NCBI RefSeq assembly: GCF_036226525.1
Contig: NZ_CP108487.1
Span: forward strand, 3,720,001-3,784,000
DNA: 64,000 nucleotides
DNA from: Kribbella sp. NBC_01245
GTDB taxonomy: Bacteria > Actinomycetota > Actinomycetes > Propionibacteriales > Kribbellaceae
Direction of reading: 5' to 3'
Below are positions 7,564-44,649 of this stretch, piece by piece. The first letter of the stretch is position 1. Every line of letters begins with the position of its first letter. The position numbers and the translations under genes are program-made. The notes below the pieces were generated by a model. It worked only from the letters and a program-made list of their open reading frames with translations. It was not told the origin of the DNA and searched no databases.

Positions 7564-7705
7564 CTCCGCTCGCCTGGCGGCCCGGGTGTCCGCTATCGGC
7601 CACACAGAGTGCAGCGAAGTGGCTACTCACCGTTGACTTCAGCGAATGGCCAAGGCGAGACTCGCCGGCACGGAAAGCGGTTGCCCCCCGCCCTTGGAGA
7701 ATGCC

Positions 7706-8512
7706 ATGACGTTCGATCGACGGAGATTCCTGCTCGCCACCGGCGCCGCGATCGCTGGTGCCGGAGTCGTCGGAACCAGCCCCGCGCACGCCCGTCCGCA
7801 AGCCTGGGAAACGGTGATCGGCACGAACACCTTCGCCAGCTATTCGGCTCTGGAATCCACCTGGAACTACTTATATCCCTGGGGTTCCGACCACAACGGC
7901 ACGGCCCGGATGTACGCGAGCCCGACCGATCACAACCACGTCTACCTCGAATCGGGTGGCGTCCTAGTGCTCAAGGCGTCGCGGATCAGCTGGAACGAGG
8001 GCAACAGCAGCAAGGACCCCTACCTGCCGATCCGGTACCACTCCGGCGCGATCCACTCGAAACTTCGGCTCACGGTCAACGACCAGTTCCCGGACTGGGA
8101 GGTCAAGGGCGACTTCCAGGCGCCTTCCGCTCGCGGCACCTGGCCCGCATTCTGGGTGACCGGCGCCAACAGCTGGCCGCCCGAGAGCGACATCCTCGAG
8201 TACAAGGGCGACGCCCGGAACTGGTTCAACACCTACGACGGCGGCTGGGAGAACACCATCGTCTCCGTGTCGAACCCCGGCGCCTGGCACACGTACCGAG
8301 CGTGGATCACCAAGGTGAGCGCGACCGACGTCGACATCCACTACTACCTGGACGGCAACTGGGTCGGCCGCCACCGCGGCTCGAACTTCGTCGGCAAACC
8401 CATGCACATCATCCTCAACCTGCAAATGGAAGGTGCCTCCGGCTCCGGCCCCACCACCGACACCCACTACCGCGCCCGCAATATCTACGTAGGCCGCACC
8501 AACAACACCTAA
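7706..8512 (+). CDS. Tat-exported glycoside hydrolase family 16 enzyme
   Basis: A 268-residue secreted beta-glucanase-fold enzyme. The start at 7706 follows GGAGA by six bases and opens a Tat signal (FDRRRFLLATGAAIAGAGVV). The catalytic strand carries the GH16 pattern E-x-D-x-x-E as ESDILE: Glu160 nucleophile, Asp162, Glu165 acid/base. Trp-rich sugar-contact loops surround it (RGTWPAFWVTGANSWPP). The protein is a single domain with no added CBM. GH16 members cut beta-1,3/1,4-glucans, galactans or agar-type polymers; the substrate here cannot be fixed, though the nearby galactan genes make a beta-galactan possible. A long hairpin begins 29 bases after the stop. Confidence 0.88.
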   Translation: MTFDRRRFLLATGAAIAGAGVVGTSPAHARPQAWETVIGTNTFASYSALESTWNYLYPWGSDHNGTARMYASPTDHNHVYLESGGVLVLKASRISWNEGNSSKDPYLPIRYHSGAIHSKLRLTVNDQFPDWEVKGDFQAPSARGTWPAFWVTGANSWPPESDILEYKGDARNWFNTYDGGWENTIVSVSNPGAWHTYRAWITKVSATDVDIHYYLDGNWVGRHRGSNFVGKPMHIILNLQMEGASGSGPTTDTHYRARNIYVGRTNNT

Positions 8513-8541
8513 CCGCCACCCCGCACACCCCAACCCCAATC

Positions 8542-8611
8542 TGTGGAAACCCCTCCCGCGAGGTGCCTCCTTACCTCGCGCGCCAGGCACCTCGCGGAGG
8601 GGTTATCCACA
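8542..8611. terminator. Long imperfect hairpin after GH16
   Basis: Two arms of about 26 bases, TGTGGAAACCCCTCC... and ...GGAGGGGTTATCCACA, differ only by small indels and enclose a 16-base loop. It lies 29 bases past the GH16 stop. There is no U-tract, so it may end or stabilise transcripts rather than act as a classic intrinsic terminator. Confidence 0.5.
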
Positions 8612-8764
8612 AATCCGCCCGCAGGATTGGGGAATGGGGATGCAACATGTACGGCGTCCGGGCCGGCGCGAGGCGTTGGCGCTCGGCGTCCACTGGCCGG
8701 ATGGCGCCGAGGCGCTGCCGGGTCGGCGAGGCATACACCGGAACCTCGTCCCCCCTTCCTTTGT

Positions 8765-8951
8765 GCGCGAGTGGACGCGTCTGAACCTCCCGCGAGTGGA
8801 CGCGTTATTACGCGACCACTCGTGCCCAAAGATTTCTCGCGGGTGGTCGCGTTATGACCTGACCGCTCACGGGAGGTCATAGGCGTCCACTCGCGGGAAG
8901 TTCGGACGCGTCCACTCGCGGGAGGGTCAGACGCGCCCACTCGCGGGAGAC
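8765..8951. repeat. Cluster of about seven GAGTGGACGCG-type repeats in both orientations
   Basis: Roughly 25-base units with core CCCGCGAGTGGACGCGT appear several times on the plus strand and as inverted copies (ACGCGTCCACTCGCGGG) up to the GH127 stop codon; some units read GGTGGTCGCG. Related single units occur at about 31434-31476 and 53804-53835. The last inverted unit abuts the end of the GH127 gene. Confidence 0.75.
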
Positions 8952-15928: not shown

Positions 15929-15979
15929 ATGTTTGCGTAAACATCGGCCTCGGTCTACAGCCAATGTTTGCGTTAACAT
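15929..15979. promoter_or_regulatory. Double LacI-type operator before the GH5-GH43 operon
   Basis: ATGTTTGCGTAAACAT (15929-15944) and ATGTTTGCGTTAACAT (15964-15979) are 16-bp palindromes with a central CG, 35 bp apart centre to centre. They match the pair at 21490-21539 before the LacI/ABC genes (ATGTTGACGTAAACAT), so the LacI protein at 20431-21465 is the probable binder of all four. Confidence 0.75.
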
Positions 15980-16030
15980 CAGTTGTGACGAGCGTCACAT
16001 CCGGCCCGAAGCGGAGTCCTCCACCGGATC

Positions 16031-17341
16031 TCAGCCGGCCGAGTCGATGTCCTTCTGCAGGTCATCGACGAAGGCCTTCGCCGCCTGCGCCGGCGTCTGC
16101 CGCCCGAACAGCACGTCCTCGCCGTGGCGCCGCAGAAGGTCCTCGACCCCGCTGGCACCGTTCGGCGTCACCCGCGGCGGATCGGCCACGGTGATGGCAT
16201 CGAGGTACGCCGCGGCCGCCTTGTCGGTGGCGTCCAGCTTCGGCGTGATCGCGCTGCGCACCTTCGGATTGGCGGGCACACCTCGATCGGTCAGCAGGAT
16301 CGCGCCCGCCTCCTCGCTGTTCGCCAGGAAGTCCAGGAACAACGCGGCCTCCGCCGGGTATTTGCTCCGCGACGAGATCGACCAGAACATCGACGGCTTG
16401 TAGTACGCGCCCGGCGACTTGGCCGCCGACTCCCCCGGCAGCTTCAACAGCGCGAGGTTGTCGCCACTCGCCTTCGTCAACGCGGTGAGCTGGGTGTTCC
16501 ACCAGAAGCCGAACGCCGACGTGTTGGTCGCCGTACCGGACTGGTCGAGCGATCCGCTAGCTCGTTCGACCGTCACCGCCGGAGTGGGCGTCACGCCGTC
16601 CTTGGACAACTGGGACATCTTCGCGAAGAGGTCCTCCACGGCCTTCGGCTCGACGACGACGTTGCCCGCGTCGTCGTACAGCGAGCCTCCCTGCTGGCGG
16701 GCCCAGATGTTCAGCCCGCCGACGTCCATCCCCCACGACTGCACGCCGGTGACCTTGCCGCCGCTGGCCTTCGAGATCCGCTGGCCCACGGCCCACAAGT
16801 CGTCCCAGGTCCACTTGCTGTCGTCCGGCATGGGGACGCCGTACTTCTTCAGCAGGTCCGTGTTGACGACGACCGAGTACGACGCCAGCCCGACCGGCAG
16901 GGCGTACTGCTTGCCGTCGACGGCACCGGTGGCCAAGGCCAACTGGTCGATGCCGTCCAGGCCGAGATGCGTTCCCTGCGTCTTGAGGTCGAGTAGCGCA
17001 CCACGATCGGCGTACGACGAGAGGTACAACTCGTCCATCTGGATCACGTCGGGTGCGTCATTGGCCGCCACTGTCGTCGCGAGGCTGTCCCAATAGCCGT
17101 TCCAGTCCTTGAACTCACCCTTGATGGTGATGTTCGGGTGCTTGCTATGGAACAAGTCCATCACCTGCTGCGTGCGCTGATGCCGGGCGTCGGACCCCCA
17201 CCACGTGAACCGCAGGGTCACAGGTTCGTCAGACAGCTCTGTCGAGCCACTCGAACCGCCGGAACATGCGGACGCAACGAGAACCATCGACAGAAGAAGC
17301 CCAATCAGCTGCAACCATTGGCGTTTTGTCTTTGCATTCAT
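16031..17341 (-). CDS. Sugar ABC transporter substrate-binding lipoprotein (orphan)
   Basis: A 436-residue extracellular sugar-binding protein (SBP_bac_1 type). The chosen start at 17341 gives MNAKTKRQWLQLIGLLLSMV and a lipobox ending LVASAC; longer in-frame starts would put 38 residues before the signal. Family features include VTLRFTWWGSDARH, VIQMDELYLSSYADRGAL and IWARQQGGSLYDD. No permease or ATPase genes adjoin it; the nearest permeases (21576-23359) already have their own binding protein at 23389. The start codon and first codons lie inside one arm of a 35-base inverted repeat (17326-17429), which could mask initiation. It follows the beta-helix gene at 17468 on the same strand, 126 bases away. 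Confidence 0.9.
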   Translation of the reverse strand: MNAKTKRQWLQLIGLLLSMVLVASACSGGSSGSTELSDEPVTLRFTWWGSDARHQRTQQVMDLFHSKHPNITIKGEFKDWNGYWDSLATTVAANDAPDVIQMDELYLSSYADRGALLDLKTQGTHLGLDGIDQLALATGAVDGKQYALPVGLASYSVVVNTDLLKKYGVPMPDDSKWTWDDLWAVGQRISKASGGKVTGVQSWGMDVGGLNIWARQQGGSLYDDAGNVVVEPKAVEDLFAKMSQLSKDGVTPTPAVTVERASGSLDQSGTATNTSAFGFWWNTQLTALTKASGDNLALLKLPGESAAKSPGAYYKPSMFWSISSRSKYPAEAALFLDFLANSEEAGAILLTDRGVPANPKVRSAITPKLDATDKAAAAYLDAITVADPPRVTPNGASGVEDLLRRHGEDVLFGRQTPAQAAKAFVDDLQKDIDSAG

Positions 17342-17429
17342 TCGTCGGAATCCGCCCTCTGCCCGCCGCTGACCTGTGCTGCTTCGCGGCGCTGAGAGGG
17401 CGGATTCCGACGAATGAATGCAAAGACAA
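17326..17429. repeat. Perfect 35-base inverted repeat over the SBP start codon
   Basis: Arm 17326-17360 is the exact inverse of 17395-17429, with a 34-base spacer that itself has short GCCGC/GCGGC complementarity. One arm contains the ATG and first five codons of the binding-protein gene; the other carries an inverted copy of them. In RNA the stem would cover the translation start. It may be an inverted duplication, an attenuator, or both. Confidence 0.85.
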
Positions 17430-17467
17430 GGCAGGCCGTCGTGTGCAAGTGGCATCGGGGGGTCCTT

Positions 17468-20242
17468 TCAGAGGCCGTGGGCGATGCGGACACAATCGAC
17501 GTACGCATTGCCGTAGTTGGAACTGTTGGCGTAGAACGCGATTCCGCCGATGGCCGGCATGGCAGTGCGGAACTGCTGGTCGTTACTGACCAGGGCGCCG
17601 TCGAGGTACAGGTCGTACCGCTGGTTCACGGTGTCGACGACCAGCCGTACGTCGTACCAACGGTCGAGCTCGTACGTCGCAACCGTGCGCGAGGTGGCGC
17701 CCTCGGAGGCGATGACGTTTCCCTTGTCGAAGGCGAGACTGATCCCCGCGACACCGCTCTCGTTGTAGAGGTAGGGCAGGCCGAACCAGTTGCTGCCGGA
17801 GACGTACGGCTGGTCGCGCATCACGCGGGCCTCTACCGTCACCAGGCCGCGCAGCGGAGTGGCCAGCGTCTGCGAGATACCAGTGCCCGCAGTACCTCCG
17901 GTGTTCGCCAAGCGGGTGAGCCGGACGCTGTGGTCAGCGGCCGACGGGACTTCCACAACGTCAACGGCGTTGCCAGTGGCGCTCACCGTCCAGCCGCCAC
18001 TCCCGTCCGGCAACGCGCCCGCAGGCCTGTCGTCGAAGTCGTGAACCTGTACGTCTTCGCCGACCGGCTTCGGCAGTAGGAACGCGCCCGCGTCCGCGAC
18101 ACCCGCTGGCGGCACAGTGAGGCCGGCCCGCTCGACGGTCTGCCGACCTTCAAGGCTTGCCACGACGGAGTAGCCCGGCCCCATCGGCATAGCGGGCACC
18201 GCGAAGCCGCCGTCCACACCGGACTGGACTGTTGCGACTTGCTGGCCGTCACGGCTGATGGAGACGACAGCTCCGGCTAGAGGCGCTGCCCGCTCGTCTA
18301 GTACGCGGCCGCCGATTGAACCGTCCGTGTTCCGCAGTACGACGGTGAGGTCGCTGCGGGTGGTGTTGCCATGGCGAACGCTGACCGTCGACCTAGCCGC
18401 GTCGTACCCGTCCTTGACCGCCGTGACGACAGCTTCGCCGAACGGCACCTGCGCGATCCGGTAGAACCCGTCGGCCTGCGTAGTGCCTCGGTAAGTTCGG
18501 CCGCGCGTCGTGACGGCAACACTCGCGCCTTCGACCGGATGGCCGAACTGGTTGCGCACAAAGCCGTTGACCGACTCCCAGACCTGCCCAATTGGCGTTC
18601 GGTACTCGAAGGCGCCTACGTCCGGCAACCCGTTGTAGAGCGTCGTACTCGCGTAGTCGCGTCCACCGTTGTCTGCGATCGCTAGACCGGTCCCGACCGC
18701 CGGTGAGCCCGAACCCGATCGCAACGCGAGTGCGCGGTGTAGCTGCGGCCCGGTGGTCTCAGTGCCGTACGGACCAGCCAGGACTCCTGCGAACAAGGGA
18801 TCGCCACTGAGCGCACGAGTGTCTGACGCCGGTACGGCGAGCTGCGCCCCGGCGTACAAGTTGTTGCCATAGGTGATGGTCGGACTCGTCGTCAGGGACG
18901 CGCCTGCTCGCGTGGAGTAGAAGACGTTGTTGCGAAGGTCGTAGCGCGCCAGCAGGGAACTGCCGTATCCGTAGACCAGGTGATCGCTACGGTCGCTGTA
19001 GATCGTGTTGTTGTAGATCTGCGCGTTCGCCGCCCGGTCGGAGTGCAGGTAGATCTGGTAGCGCGTATTGGCGGCAATGGCGTTGTAGCGCACTACTACG
19101 TCACCGAACGAGAACTGGCAGATCAGGATGCCGTCGCCGTTGTGGTGGACGAAGTTGTACTGCACGACGACCCGCGTGGTGGCCTTGTCCGGGTCGATCG
19201 CGTTGGAGTCGGCACCGCCCGCCTTTTGCTGGGTCTCGTAGACCTCGTTGTACTGGATCACGACGTCGTCGGCGTAGTACGCCTCGATCCCCGACGTCCC
19301 GGCCCGGTAGACGACGTTGCGCTCGATGAGTGCACCCCGTACGTCGGTGAGGTACATGCCGTTGCAGGCGTAGTCGCTGCCGTCCTGCTGGACGAAGTTG
19401 TTCCGGATGACCACGTTGGTGTGCGGGGTGAACCGGGTGTCGCCCGCGTTGGCACGCTCGCCCCAGCCGGTGGGGACGGCGCCCGGCGTGGAACCCGTGT
19501 GCTGCTTGACGATGATGCCGGCGAACGAGGTTCGTTTGATGGTGGAGTTCTCGATCACGATGTCGTTCAGCACGGTCGCGGCGCCGGGGGCCGTTTCGTC
19601 GGCGACGGTGCCGCGGAAGACGATCCCGCCGGTGTTCTTCGAGCGGTCCCAGCCGGTCTTGAAGGTGACGCCGGGTGCGTTACCGGCCGGGTCACCGCCG
19701 ATCCAGTTCACCTCGCCGGTCACGTCGTGGACGTAGACGCCGTCGATCCTGAAGTGGTCCAGCCGGCCGCCTTGATCACCGCTGACTTGGATTCCTCGCA
19801 GGTCGCGAAGGTTCGTACCCGGCTCACCCGCGAGCGGGCGGGTGTTGGTGACCTCGAGGTTCCGGATCTCCCAGTGCTGCTGGTTGAACAGGCGAACCGT
19901 CTCAGCCACCTCGCCGGCACCGTGCACGGCCGGTTTGGCGCCGGGACCGTACCGATCAACGACGATCGGGAGGCCGGCTGATCCCGAGCCCTTGGGCCAT
20001 AGCTGTCCCGTCCAACTCTGACCGGCCCGGAGCAGAATCCGATCGCCGGGCTCGAACGTCGTCGCATTCACCTTCGCCAACGTCCGCCAAGGCTGCAACG
20101 GCGACGTCCCCGCCGCCGCATCGGACCCACGCACGGCATCGACGTAATAGCTCGCGCCATCATTCGAATCGGCGGTCGCCATCCCGGGCGATACGAGAAG
20201 CAACGCAAGCGTCAGCGCAATGAGTCGGGCCTTGATCCGCAT
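17468..20242 (-). CDS. Secreted parallel beta-helix protein with two carboxypeptidase-regulatory-like domains and a LamG-like tail
   Basis: A 924-residue secreted protein. Start at 20242, after an AAGGGG Shine-Dalgarno, opens MRIKARLIALTLALLLVSPG. Residues about 30-550 form a right-handed beta-helix: many repeats with N-x-I/V patterns such as VVIRNNFVQQDGS, VVIQYNEVYETQ and VVVQYNFVHHNGDGI, as in polysaccharide lyases and GH28/GH49-type folds. Next come two CarboxypepD_reg-like domains (GHPVEGASVAV and GGRVLDERAAPLAGAVVSIS) and a C-terminal concanavalin-like domain (YELDRWYDVRLVVDTVNQRY). The catalytic family is not certain; a role on plant pectin or arabinogalactan side chains fits the locus. 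A LacI-type palindrome (20254-20269) overlaps its ribosome-binding site. Confidence 0.8.
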   Translation of the reverse strand: MRIKARLIALTLALLLVSPGMATADSNDGASYYVDAVRGSDAAAGTSPLQPWRTLAKVNATTFEPGDRILLRAGQSWTGQLWPKGSGSAGLPIVVDRYGPGAKPAVHGAGEVAETVRLFNQQHWEIRNLEVTNTRPLAGEPGTNLRDLRGIQVSGDQGGRLDHFRIDGVYVHDVTGEVNWIGGDPAGNAPGVTFKTGWDRSKNTGGIVFRGTVADETAPGAATVLNDIVIENSTIKRTSFAGIIVKQHTGSTPGAVPTGWGERANAGDTRFTPHTNVVIRNNFVQQDGSDYACNGMYLTDVRGALIERNVVYRAGTSGIEAYYADDVVIQYNEVYETQQKAGGADSNAIDPDKATTRVVVQYNFVHHNGDGILICQFSFGDVVVRYNAIAANTRYQIYLHSDRAANAQIYNNTIYSDRSDHLVYGYGSSLLARYDLRNNVFYSTRAGASLTTSPTITYGNNLYAGAQLAVPASDTRALSGDPLFAGVLAGPYGTETTGPQLHRALALRSGSGSPAVGTGLAIADNGGRDYASTTLYNGLPDVGAFEYRTPIGQVWESVNGFVRNQFGHPVEGASVAVTTRGRTYRGTTQADGFYRIAQVPFGEAVVTAVKDGYDAARSTVSVRHGNTTRSDLTVVLRNTDGSIGGRVLDERAAPLAGAVVSISRDGQQVATVQSGVDGGFAVPAMPMGPGYSVVASLEGRQTVERAGLTVPPAGVADAGAFLLPKPVGEDVQVHDFDDRPAGALPDGSGGWTVSATGNAVDVVEVPSAADHSVRLTRLANTGGTAGTGISQTLATPLRGLVTVEARVMRDQPYVSGSNWFGLPYLYNESGVAGISLAFDKGNVIASEGATSRTVATYELDRWYDVRLVVDTVNQRYDLYLDGALVSNDQQFRTAMPAIGGIAFYANSSNYGNAYVDCVRIAHGL

Positions 20243-20346: not shown

Positions 20347-20421
20347 TTTCTTTGCGACGACCCGGCGCAAAGAAAGTGGCGCGCCGTCGCAAAGAAGGGG
20401 GCCGCGTCGTCGCAAAGAAGG
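20347..20421. repeat. Hairpin plus tandem CGCAAAGAAGG repeats
   Basis: TTTCTTTGCG (20347-20356) pairs with CGCAAAGAAA (20366-20375). GTCGCAAAGAAGG then occurs at 20386-20398 and again at 20409-20421, ten bases before the LacI stop codon. The block separates the LacI gene from the beta-helix gene on the same strand and could act as a terminator of the former. Confidence 0.6.
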
Positions 20422-44320: not shown

Positions 44321-44514
44321 CTCGCCCCGCCCTCCCATTTCCGAGGACGGCCCGCTCCAGCTCGCTCAGCGCCCCCCCACCCGCGAGGCGGCCCGATCTA
44401 GCTCGTTCAGCGCCCCCCACCCGCGAGGCGGCTCGTTCTAGCCCATTCAGCGCGCTCCCCATCTCCGAGGCGACCCGTCCTAGCCCGTTCAACAGCCCCA
44501 ATTCCGAGCGTCGA
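44311..44514 (+). repeat. Five tandem repeats of about 41 bp
   Basis: Units start near 44311, 44351, 44392, 44432 and 44474, with consensus CCCGnTCTAGCTCGTTCAGC followed by GCCCCCCACCCGCGAGGCGG. The first unit contains the end of the FprB-type gene including its stop codon. The function is unknown; the units are GC-rich and slightly diverged. Confidence 0.75.
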
Positions 44515-44649
44515 CCCTCGGAATAGGGGGTGGGACTCGCCAAACTTGGGGGGTCGACTCCCCATTCCGAGGGTCGACCCGCGGAATAGGAGCGACCGGG
44601 TCGGGCCCGATCGCGTCGGAGTCGCGGCACGGATGGCGGGGGTTTGGGG
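44321..44649. other. Gene-free gap filled by repeats
   Basis: The 329 bases between convergent FprB-type and MarR genes consist of the 41-bp repeats, then the two 24-bp palindromes, then about 60 bases of plain sequence. No gene seen. Confidence 0.7.
44501..44587. repeat. Two 24-bp palindromes centred on GTCGAC
   Basis: ATTCCGAG-CGTCGACC-CTCGGAAT at 44501-44524 and ATTCCGAG-GGTCGACC-CGCGGAAT at 44564-44587, each with two mismatched bases. They could fold as hairpins between the convergent genes, or serve as protein sites. Confidence 0.7.

Follow-up and report, generated by a model that had tools for sequence, protein, structure and literature searches.

The long inverted repeat that covers the start codon of a solute-binding lipoprotein gene is one of about 170 copies of a dispersed element of about 96 bp, hereafter family A, and is not specific to this locus. 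We consider it probable that a non-autonomous palindromic element, REPIN/MITE-like in kind, inserted here, the copies of which, with those of further families built alike, fill gene ends of this Kribbella genome. As the sequence-only reading had described it, the two arms in the window (the whole 64-kb stretch of DNA analysed) are reverse complements at 35/35 bases around a spacer of 34 nt (Table 1). The repeat is the top-scoring palindrome of the window (score 35, runner-up 19), while mono-shuffled sequence (400 kb of the same genome) yielded none with a score of at least 18. Its folding as RNA, which had been proposed as a check, gave a very stable hairpin (-98.1 kcal/mol, z -11.2), equalled by 0 of 200 shuffles.

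Table 1. Positions of the family A copy, the neighbouring genes and further palindromes in the window
Feature	Position	Strand	Remarks
Family A element core, 96 bp (CTTTGCATTC...GAATGCAAAG)	17330..17425		Covariance-model match C1:3737330-3737425, 110.8 bits; ends set from 83-copy alignment
Left arm, 35 nt	17326..17360		Outermost TTGT (4 bases) is pairing, copy-specific flank
Spacer, 34 nt	17361..17394		Varies among family A copies; mean pairwise identity 0.60
Right arm, 35 nt	17395..17429		Reverse complement of the left arm
Extracellular solute-binding lipoprotein, 436 aa + stop	16031..17341	-	PF13416, PF01547; counted from the left-arm ATG
Alternative 5' part of the lipoprotein gene, same frame	17342..17455	-	ATG at 17455 after AAAGGA; 38 codons through the hairpin
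Upstream gene, beta-helix and carbohydrate-type domains	17468..20239	-	Stop faces the element, 42 nt from the element edge
Similar-looking palindrome TTCTTTGCGACGACCCGGC, loop 34	20348..20419		Between two genes
Imperfect palindrome, arm 35, loop 23	8785..8877		Directly after the stop of ORF 7609-8784

A dispersed palindrome restricted to one genome

Allowing up to 3 mismatches, the arm pattern was found 166 times in forward and 175 times in reverse orientation in the own genome (8.68 Mb, one contig), and its control 0 times in either, from which a number of about 170 palindromes is extrapolated. Searching this genome with the stretch itself pointed to about 40 places, mostly 87-93% identical, with 40 of the 190 candidates scored. 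A covariance model, with 110 candidates scored per genome, matched all 110 of those from the own genome but none of those from the 37 other Kribbella genomes, in 0/37 of which the arm was found at 2 mismatches (38 genomes of the genus were examined). In a 400-kb part of this genome the model has 12 strong matches, five with perfect arms and seven with imperfect ones; extrapolation from them gives a number of about 260 per genome. Exact arm matches were absent from the genome_contigs collection, which possibly excludes the own genome; no plasmid or phage match to the element was found, and the open-licence literature searched names no such Kribbella repeat in the text available.

Each element consists of a variable spacer of ~36 nt framed by two arms of ~30 nt, one arm being an inverted copy of the other. 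The 85 copies read are a non-random set (taken from about 170 as exact matches to the arm or as top BLAST hits) with the ends CTTTGCATTC...GAATGCAAAG, and they fall into the end subfamilies GCATTC (53), GCGTTC (27), GCACTC (2), TCATTC (2) and CCATTC (1). Omitting two copies with cores of 62 and 56 nt from arm and spacer counts, the arms are identical within 77/83 copies and show 0.8 mismatches per 26 between copies, whereas spacers are about 60% alike; 42 copies lie in one orientation and 41 in the other. The only internal stem in the arm consensus GAGGGCGGATTCCGACGAATGAATGC is, by inspection, a 3-bp CGG/CCG, and the stem is preceded by T and followed by A. Direct repeats of at least 3 bp, sought as target-site duplications at eight assumed ends, occurred in 0-2 of the 85 copies (expected 0-1.4).

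Other long palindromes accompany family A. Scanning 400 kb of the own genome revealed 29, belonging to many arm families and 18 of them with a loop of 25-60 nt; the relatives yielded 5 in 400 kb of G010, none with such a loop, one in 220 kb of G029 (loop 7) and two in 180 kb of G018 (loops 7 and 59). Family B, with the arms GCGTTGATTCGTCCGAATCCGCCCGC and GCGTTGATTCGTCTGCATCCGCTCGC, has 91 + 90 matches in the own genome (~90 copies) and a single 3-mismatch match outside of it, in G018. All 16 family B copies read combine the two unlike arms, and none of the 16 has a flank extension; in some copies (L256-L284) the outer bases of both arms change together, as at C1:2881402/2881464, whereas the arms continue to differ at three inner bases. 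A second dispersed palindrome of the own genome, GTCACAAGGGNCCGATGA with the outer arms TTCATCGGTCCCTTGTGAC..., gave 128 + 140 arm matches and is seen at L077 (1375-1635), L029, L107 (308-431), L109 and L113, its loop often enclosing a family A copy, many of them of the GCATTC subfamily. Related palindromes with other arms (CCGACTCATCATCGGTCCCTTGTGTCCCTCC) occur as 9 arm pairs in SID13031, labelled Streptomyces sp. and placed in the genus Kribbella among the genomes compared, and as 1 pair in K. catacumbae; in both (L099-L106) the same 22 bases form both arms of each pair around a loop of about 31-47 nt. Elsewhere in the window, a palindrome ATTCCGAGCGTCGACCCTCGGAATAGGG at 44501-44587 resembles own-genome palindromes at L172 (10516) and L169 (2767/15812), and an imperfect one, TGTGGAAACCCCTCCCGCGAGGTGCCT, at 8542-8611 resembles another at L168 (17207). 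The 17-bp copies ATGTTTGCGTAAACATC and ATGTTTGCGTTAACATC, 35 bp apart at 15929-15980 and upstream of a GH5 gene, look like putative LacI-type operators.

Arms, flanks and the spread of the element

In the reading we prefer, an enzyme acting in trans would recognise both arms and multiply the copies by transposition, so that those with intact arms would go on being copied as their spacers drift. For REPINs, conserved ends together with a drifting spacer have been argued, in the available text of PMC3116915, to be the outcome of copying only those copies whose ends are intact. A search of the own genome for an intact RAYT found none; PF01797 gave one partial match of 27.7 bits (profile positions 44-111) adjoining a TnpB-like ORF, although a very divergent RAYT could escape such a search. 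Neither was a transposase found that recognises the element ends. As to an autonomous insertion sequence, the forward and reverse arm counts are near equal (166/175), and one unpaired arm was met among the subset of loci read.

Movement is inferred from one strain of the species, and loci of relatives without the element are consistent with it. At L096, the element sits between two convergent stops and is absent from the counterparts in G005 and G029, and at L073 it is absent from those in G003, G005, G029, G025 and G010. Identity to the relatives reaches only 75-82% at the loci compared, and these empty sites therefore rest on gene-end anchors and not on base-exact alignment; in flank queries of eight loci against six relatives, both flanks were close enough for one of the eight (L073). 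A loss of SbcCD as a permissive cause was considered and set aside, as SbcD-like matches, none over the cut-off, occur in all 38 genomes including the own one, so that no difference is seen. Matches to Rfam families stayed below threshold, were mostly to microRNA hairpin models, and are put down to a long hairpin resembling them by chance.

What ordinary transposition leaves unexplained is the palindromic spill-over into the flanks. Beyond the arms, pairing continues for at least 8 bp into flank bases that differ copy by copy in 25/80 copies, where ~1.4 are expected. Tested within subfamilies, with the five copies of rare end types omitted from the 85, at least 8 extra pairs were present in 11/53 GCATTC copies (0.50 expected; some of these are nested in the larger second repeat, which may blur their flanks) and in 14/27 GCGTTC copies (0.92 expected), and 0/5000 permutations reached the mean of either subfamily. 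In the GCATTC subfamily, most extensions are peculiar to their copy; the flank AAAAGAAG, however, is common to several GCGTTC copies, and part of the extension is therefore inherited there. In the window copy, pairing extends 8 nt past GC...GC (AAAGACAA), an extension that recurs in 0 other arms of its subfamily. A pre-existing palindromic target is disfavoured as its source, since the extension directly adjoins the arm and the relatives at L096 and L073, as far as gene-end anchors allow, show none.

One explanation, which we regard as possible though doubtful, is template switching, in which a replicating polymerase copies one arm of the hairpin onto the other, sometimes running into the flank, and thereby keeps the arms identical. 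Such a mechanism for hairpins is described in the available part of PMC8794818 and suggested in that of PMC6649704. It accords with the spill-over into unique flanks in both subfamilies and with the arm changes, of which 37 are symmetric vs five one-sided in 83 copies, 14/30 alignment pairs being changed on both sides vs 3.3 in shuffles. However, it leaves the copy number unexplained, and the two unlike arms that family B of the same genome keeps, with no flank extension in the 16 copies read, speak against simple copying of one arm onto the other; switching over short tracts may still occur where the arms end.

About equally tentative is the proposal that insertion itself creates the symmetry of the flanks: the element would cap a broken end as a hairpin, the opening of which, a few bases inside the flank, would leave an inverted copy of the flank at the opposite side. 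P nucleotides may serve as a parallel for such off-centre hairpin opening. Hairpin capping would account for the spill-over in one step, and it agrees with extensions that are mostly copy-specific in GCATTC, contiguous with the arm and free of an unpaired loop, and with the lack of a matching palindrome in the relatives at L096 and L073. Against it stand the AAAAGAAG flank, common to part of the GCGTTC subfamily and thus in part inherited, as well as the lack of an enzyme found and of a base-exact ancestor. Taken further, and rather improbably, family A might represent a new class of mobile palindromes, which cap broken gene-end DNA as a hairpin, are opened off-centre, leave an inverted flank copy instead of a direct target duplication, and exist as several families at hundreds of copies in one host lineage.

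Gene ends and the start of the lipoprotein gene

None of the 85 copies lies inside a gene call, the calls being made by a codon-usage script and not taken from an annotation. In terms of gene context, 43 copies are codirectional, 26 convergent, 11 divergent and 5 at locus edges; leaving out these five, the convergent share is 26/80 vs 16-17% expected from the intergenic regions of a 400-kb part of this genome (about twofold, p < 0.001). Facing stops lie within 30 bp of the copy in 50/98 cases, facing starts in 2/67, so that covering a start, as in the window, is untypical for family A. Relative to genes, the orientation of the copies is unbiased (13, 11, 9 and 7 in the codirectional classes), which speaks against a function of one RNA strand.

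This preference for stops and convergent pairs is strong, and together with arms that are conserved where spacers are not, and with double changes that keep the pairing, it would suit structures under selection at gene ends, either bidirectional terminators or protectors of mRNA 3' ends. We nevertheless judge this unlikely: the element is absent from 37 congeners, the compared gene pairs of two congeners do without it, no T-run follows the stem (T stands before, A after), and orientation is unbiased. A scan of 17200-17600 for intrinsic terminators (GC hairpin plus T run) likewise found 0.

In the window, the insertion lies between the beta-helix and the solute-binding gene and would now supply the first codons of the latter, either with a donated ATG at 17341 or, if the ATG at 17455 is the start, with an N-terminal extension in frame. 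The ATG and first codons had been placed within one arm by the sequence-only reading, correctly so: on the minus strand of the left arm, the ATG at 17341-17339 opens MNAKTKRQW... of the solute-binding protein. The frame upstream of 17341 is, however, open across the entire repeat up to the ATG at 17455, 38 codons upstream and outside the hairpin, and the arm ATG is therefore not the sole candidate start. The codon score of this 5' part is -0.53 per codon vs +0.32 for the gene body; translation from 17455 is thus possible, while codon use gives no support to it. The best orthologue (G005, 74% identity) begins with MRRWIAL, which aligns by eye with TKRQWLQL of the window protein, and the first residues of the latter therefore derive from the element.

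It had further been supposed that the hairpin hides initiation, as a regulatory switch, a silencing mutation or the scar of an inverted duplication. The hairpin is indeed very stable and holds the arm ATG, but a Shine-Dalgarno-led, in-frame ATG lies upstream and outside of it, so that initiation need not be hidden and silencing is not implied. With ~170 copies, and identical arms in 77/83 of those compared, a switch, a mutation or a scar private to this gene is not supported as the main explanation, and a hairpin dedicated to regulating or silencing the lipoprotein gene is very improbable. A switch by spacer inversion found no sign either, the two orientations of family A being balanced and unrelated to gene strand. 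In the comparison with relatives, the family was absent from 37 congeners; a base-exact empty site for the window copy was not obtainable, the upstream region being different in G005, which holds the only close orthologue. A promoter scan of the window copy, confined to sigma-70-like sites, found none. An assembly artefact or palindrome from chimeric reads, which had been named as an alternative, has nothing in its favour and is of negligible probability, because the genome is a single contig and the sequence belongs to a family of ~170 homologous copies with differing spacers and flanks.

Relation to known palindromic repeats

What appeared as a curiosity of a single gene becomes genome-wide, one Kribbella species carrying several families of long gene-end palindromes. 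Symmetric spill-over into the flanks, together with a same-arm and a two-arm family side by side in one genome, makes two things testable: how palindromic repeats with no known transposase spread, and whether copying or recognition keeps the arms identical.

Palindromic elements of Rickettsia are palindromes of ~100-150 bp whose sequence can form part of a gene's reading frame. The window copy is similar in that it, too, can be read in frame; it differs in being at most an N-terminal extension, and 0/85 family A copies lie inside a gene call. These elements are mentioned in the available part of PMC10969869, against whose account bacterial MITEs can also be compared: like them, family A is small, non-coding and dispersed, with terminal inverted repeats and high copy number, but it lacks a target-site duplication, and no parent insertion sequence with its ends was found.

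The CGTC-tagged REPs carry, according to the available text of Di Nocera (2013, PMC3733652), a CGTC tag followed by a stem of 8-9 bp with a loop of 4-5 nt, and the hosts named there are Proteobacteria, Chlorobi, Bacteroidetes, Spirochaetes and Thermotogae, not Actinobacteria. With dimers of these REPs family A shares CGTC in the arm, the lack of a known dedicated transposase, a position after coding regions in codirectional and convergent pairs, and the existence of homodimer and heterodimer families. Family A arms, however, contain no internal stem of 8-9 bp with a loop of 4-5 nt, and both arms and total length are longer.

Also among the closest systems are the REPINs (Bertels and Rainey 2011), as far as PMC3116915 was available, with two invariant inverted ends, a variable spacer, an extragenic position, hundreds of copies per genome and a predicted hairpin. 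Family A shows conserved inverted ends with a variable spacer, forms hairpins, is mostly extragenic and reaches high copy number. Unlike REPINs, its arms measure ~30 nt and contain no 16-bp REP that has an imperfect palindrome as its core, no intact RAYT was found, and the palindrome runs into the flanks. Since it departs from the REPINs, the CGTC REP dimers and the MITEs in at least one tested defining feature each, we file family A as a palindromic interspersed repeat outside all three.
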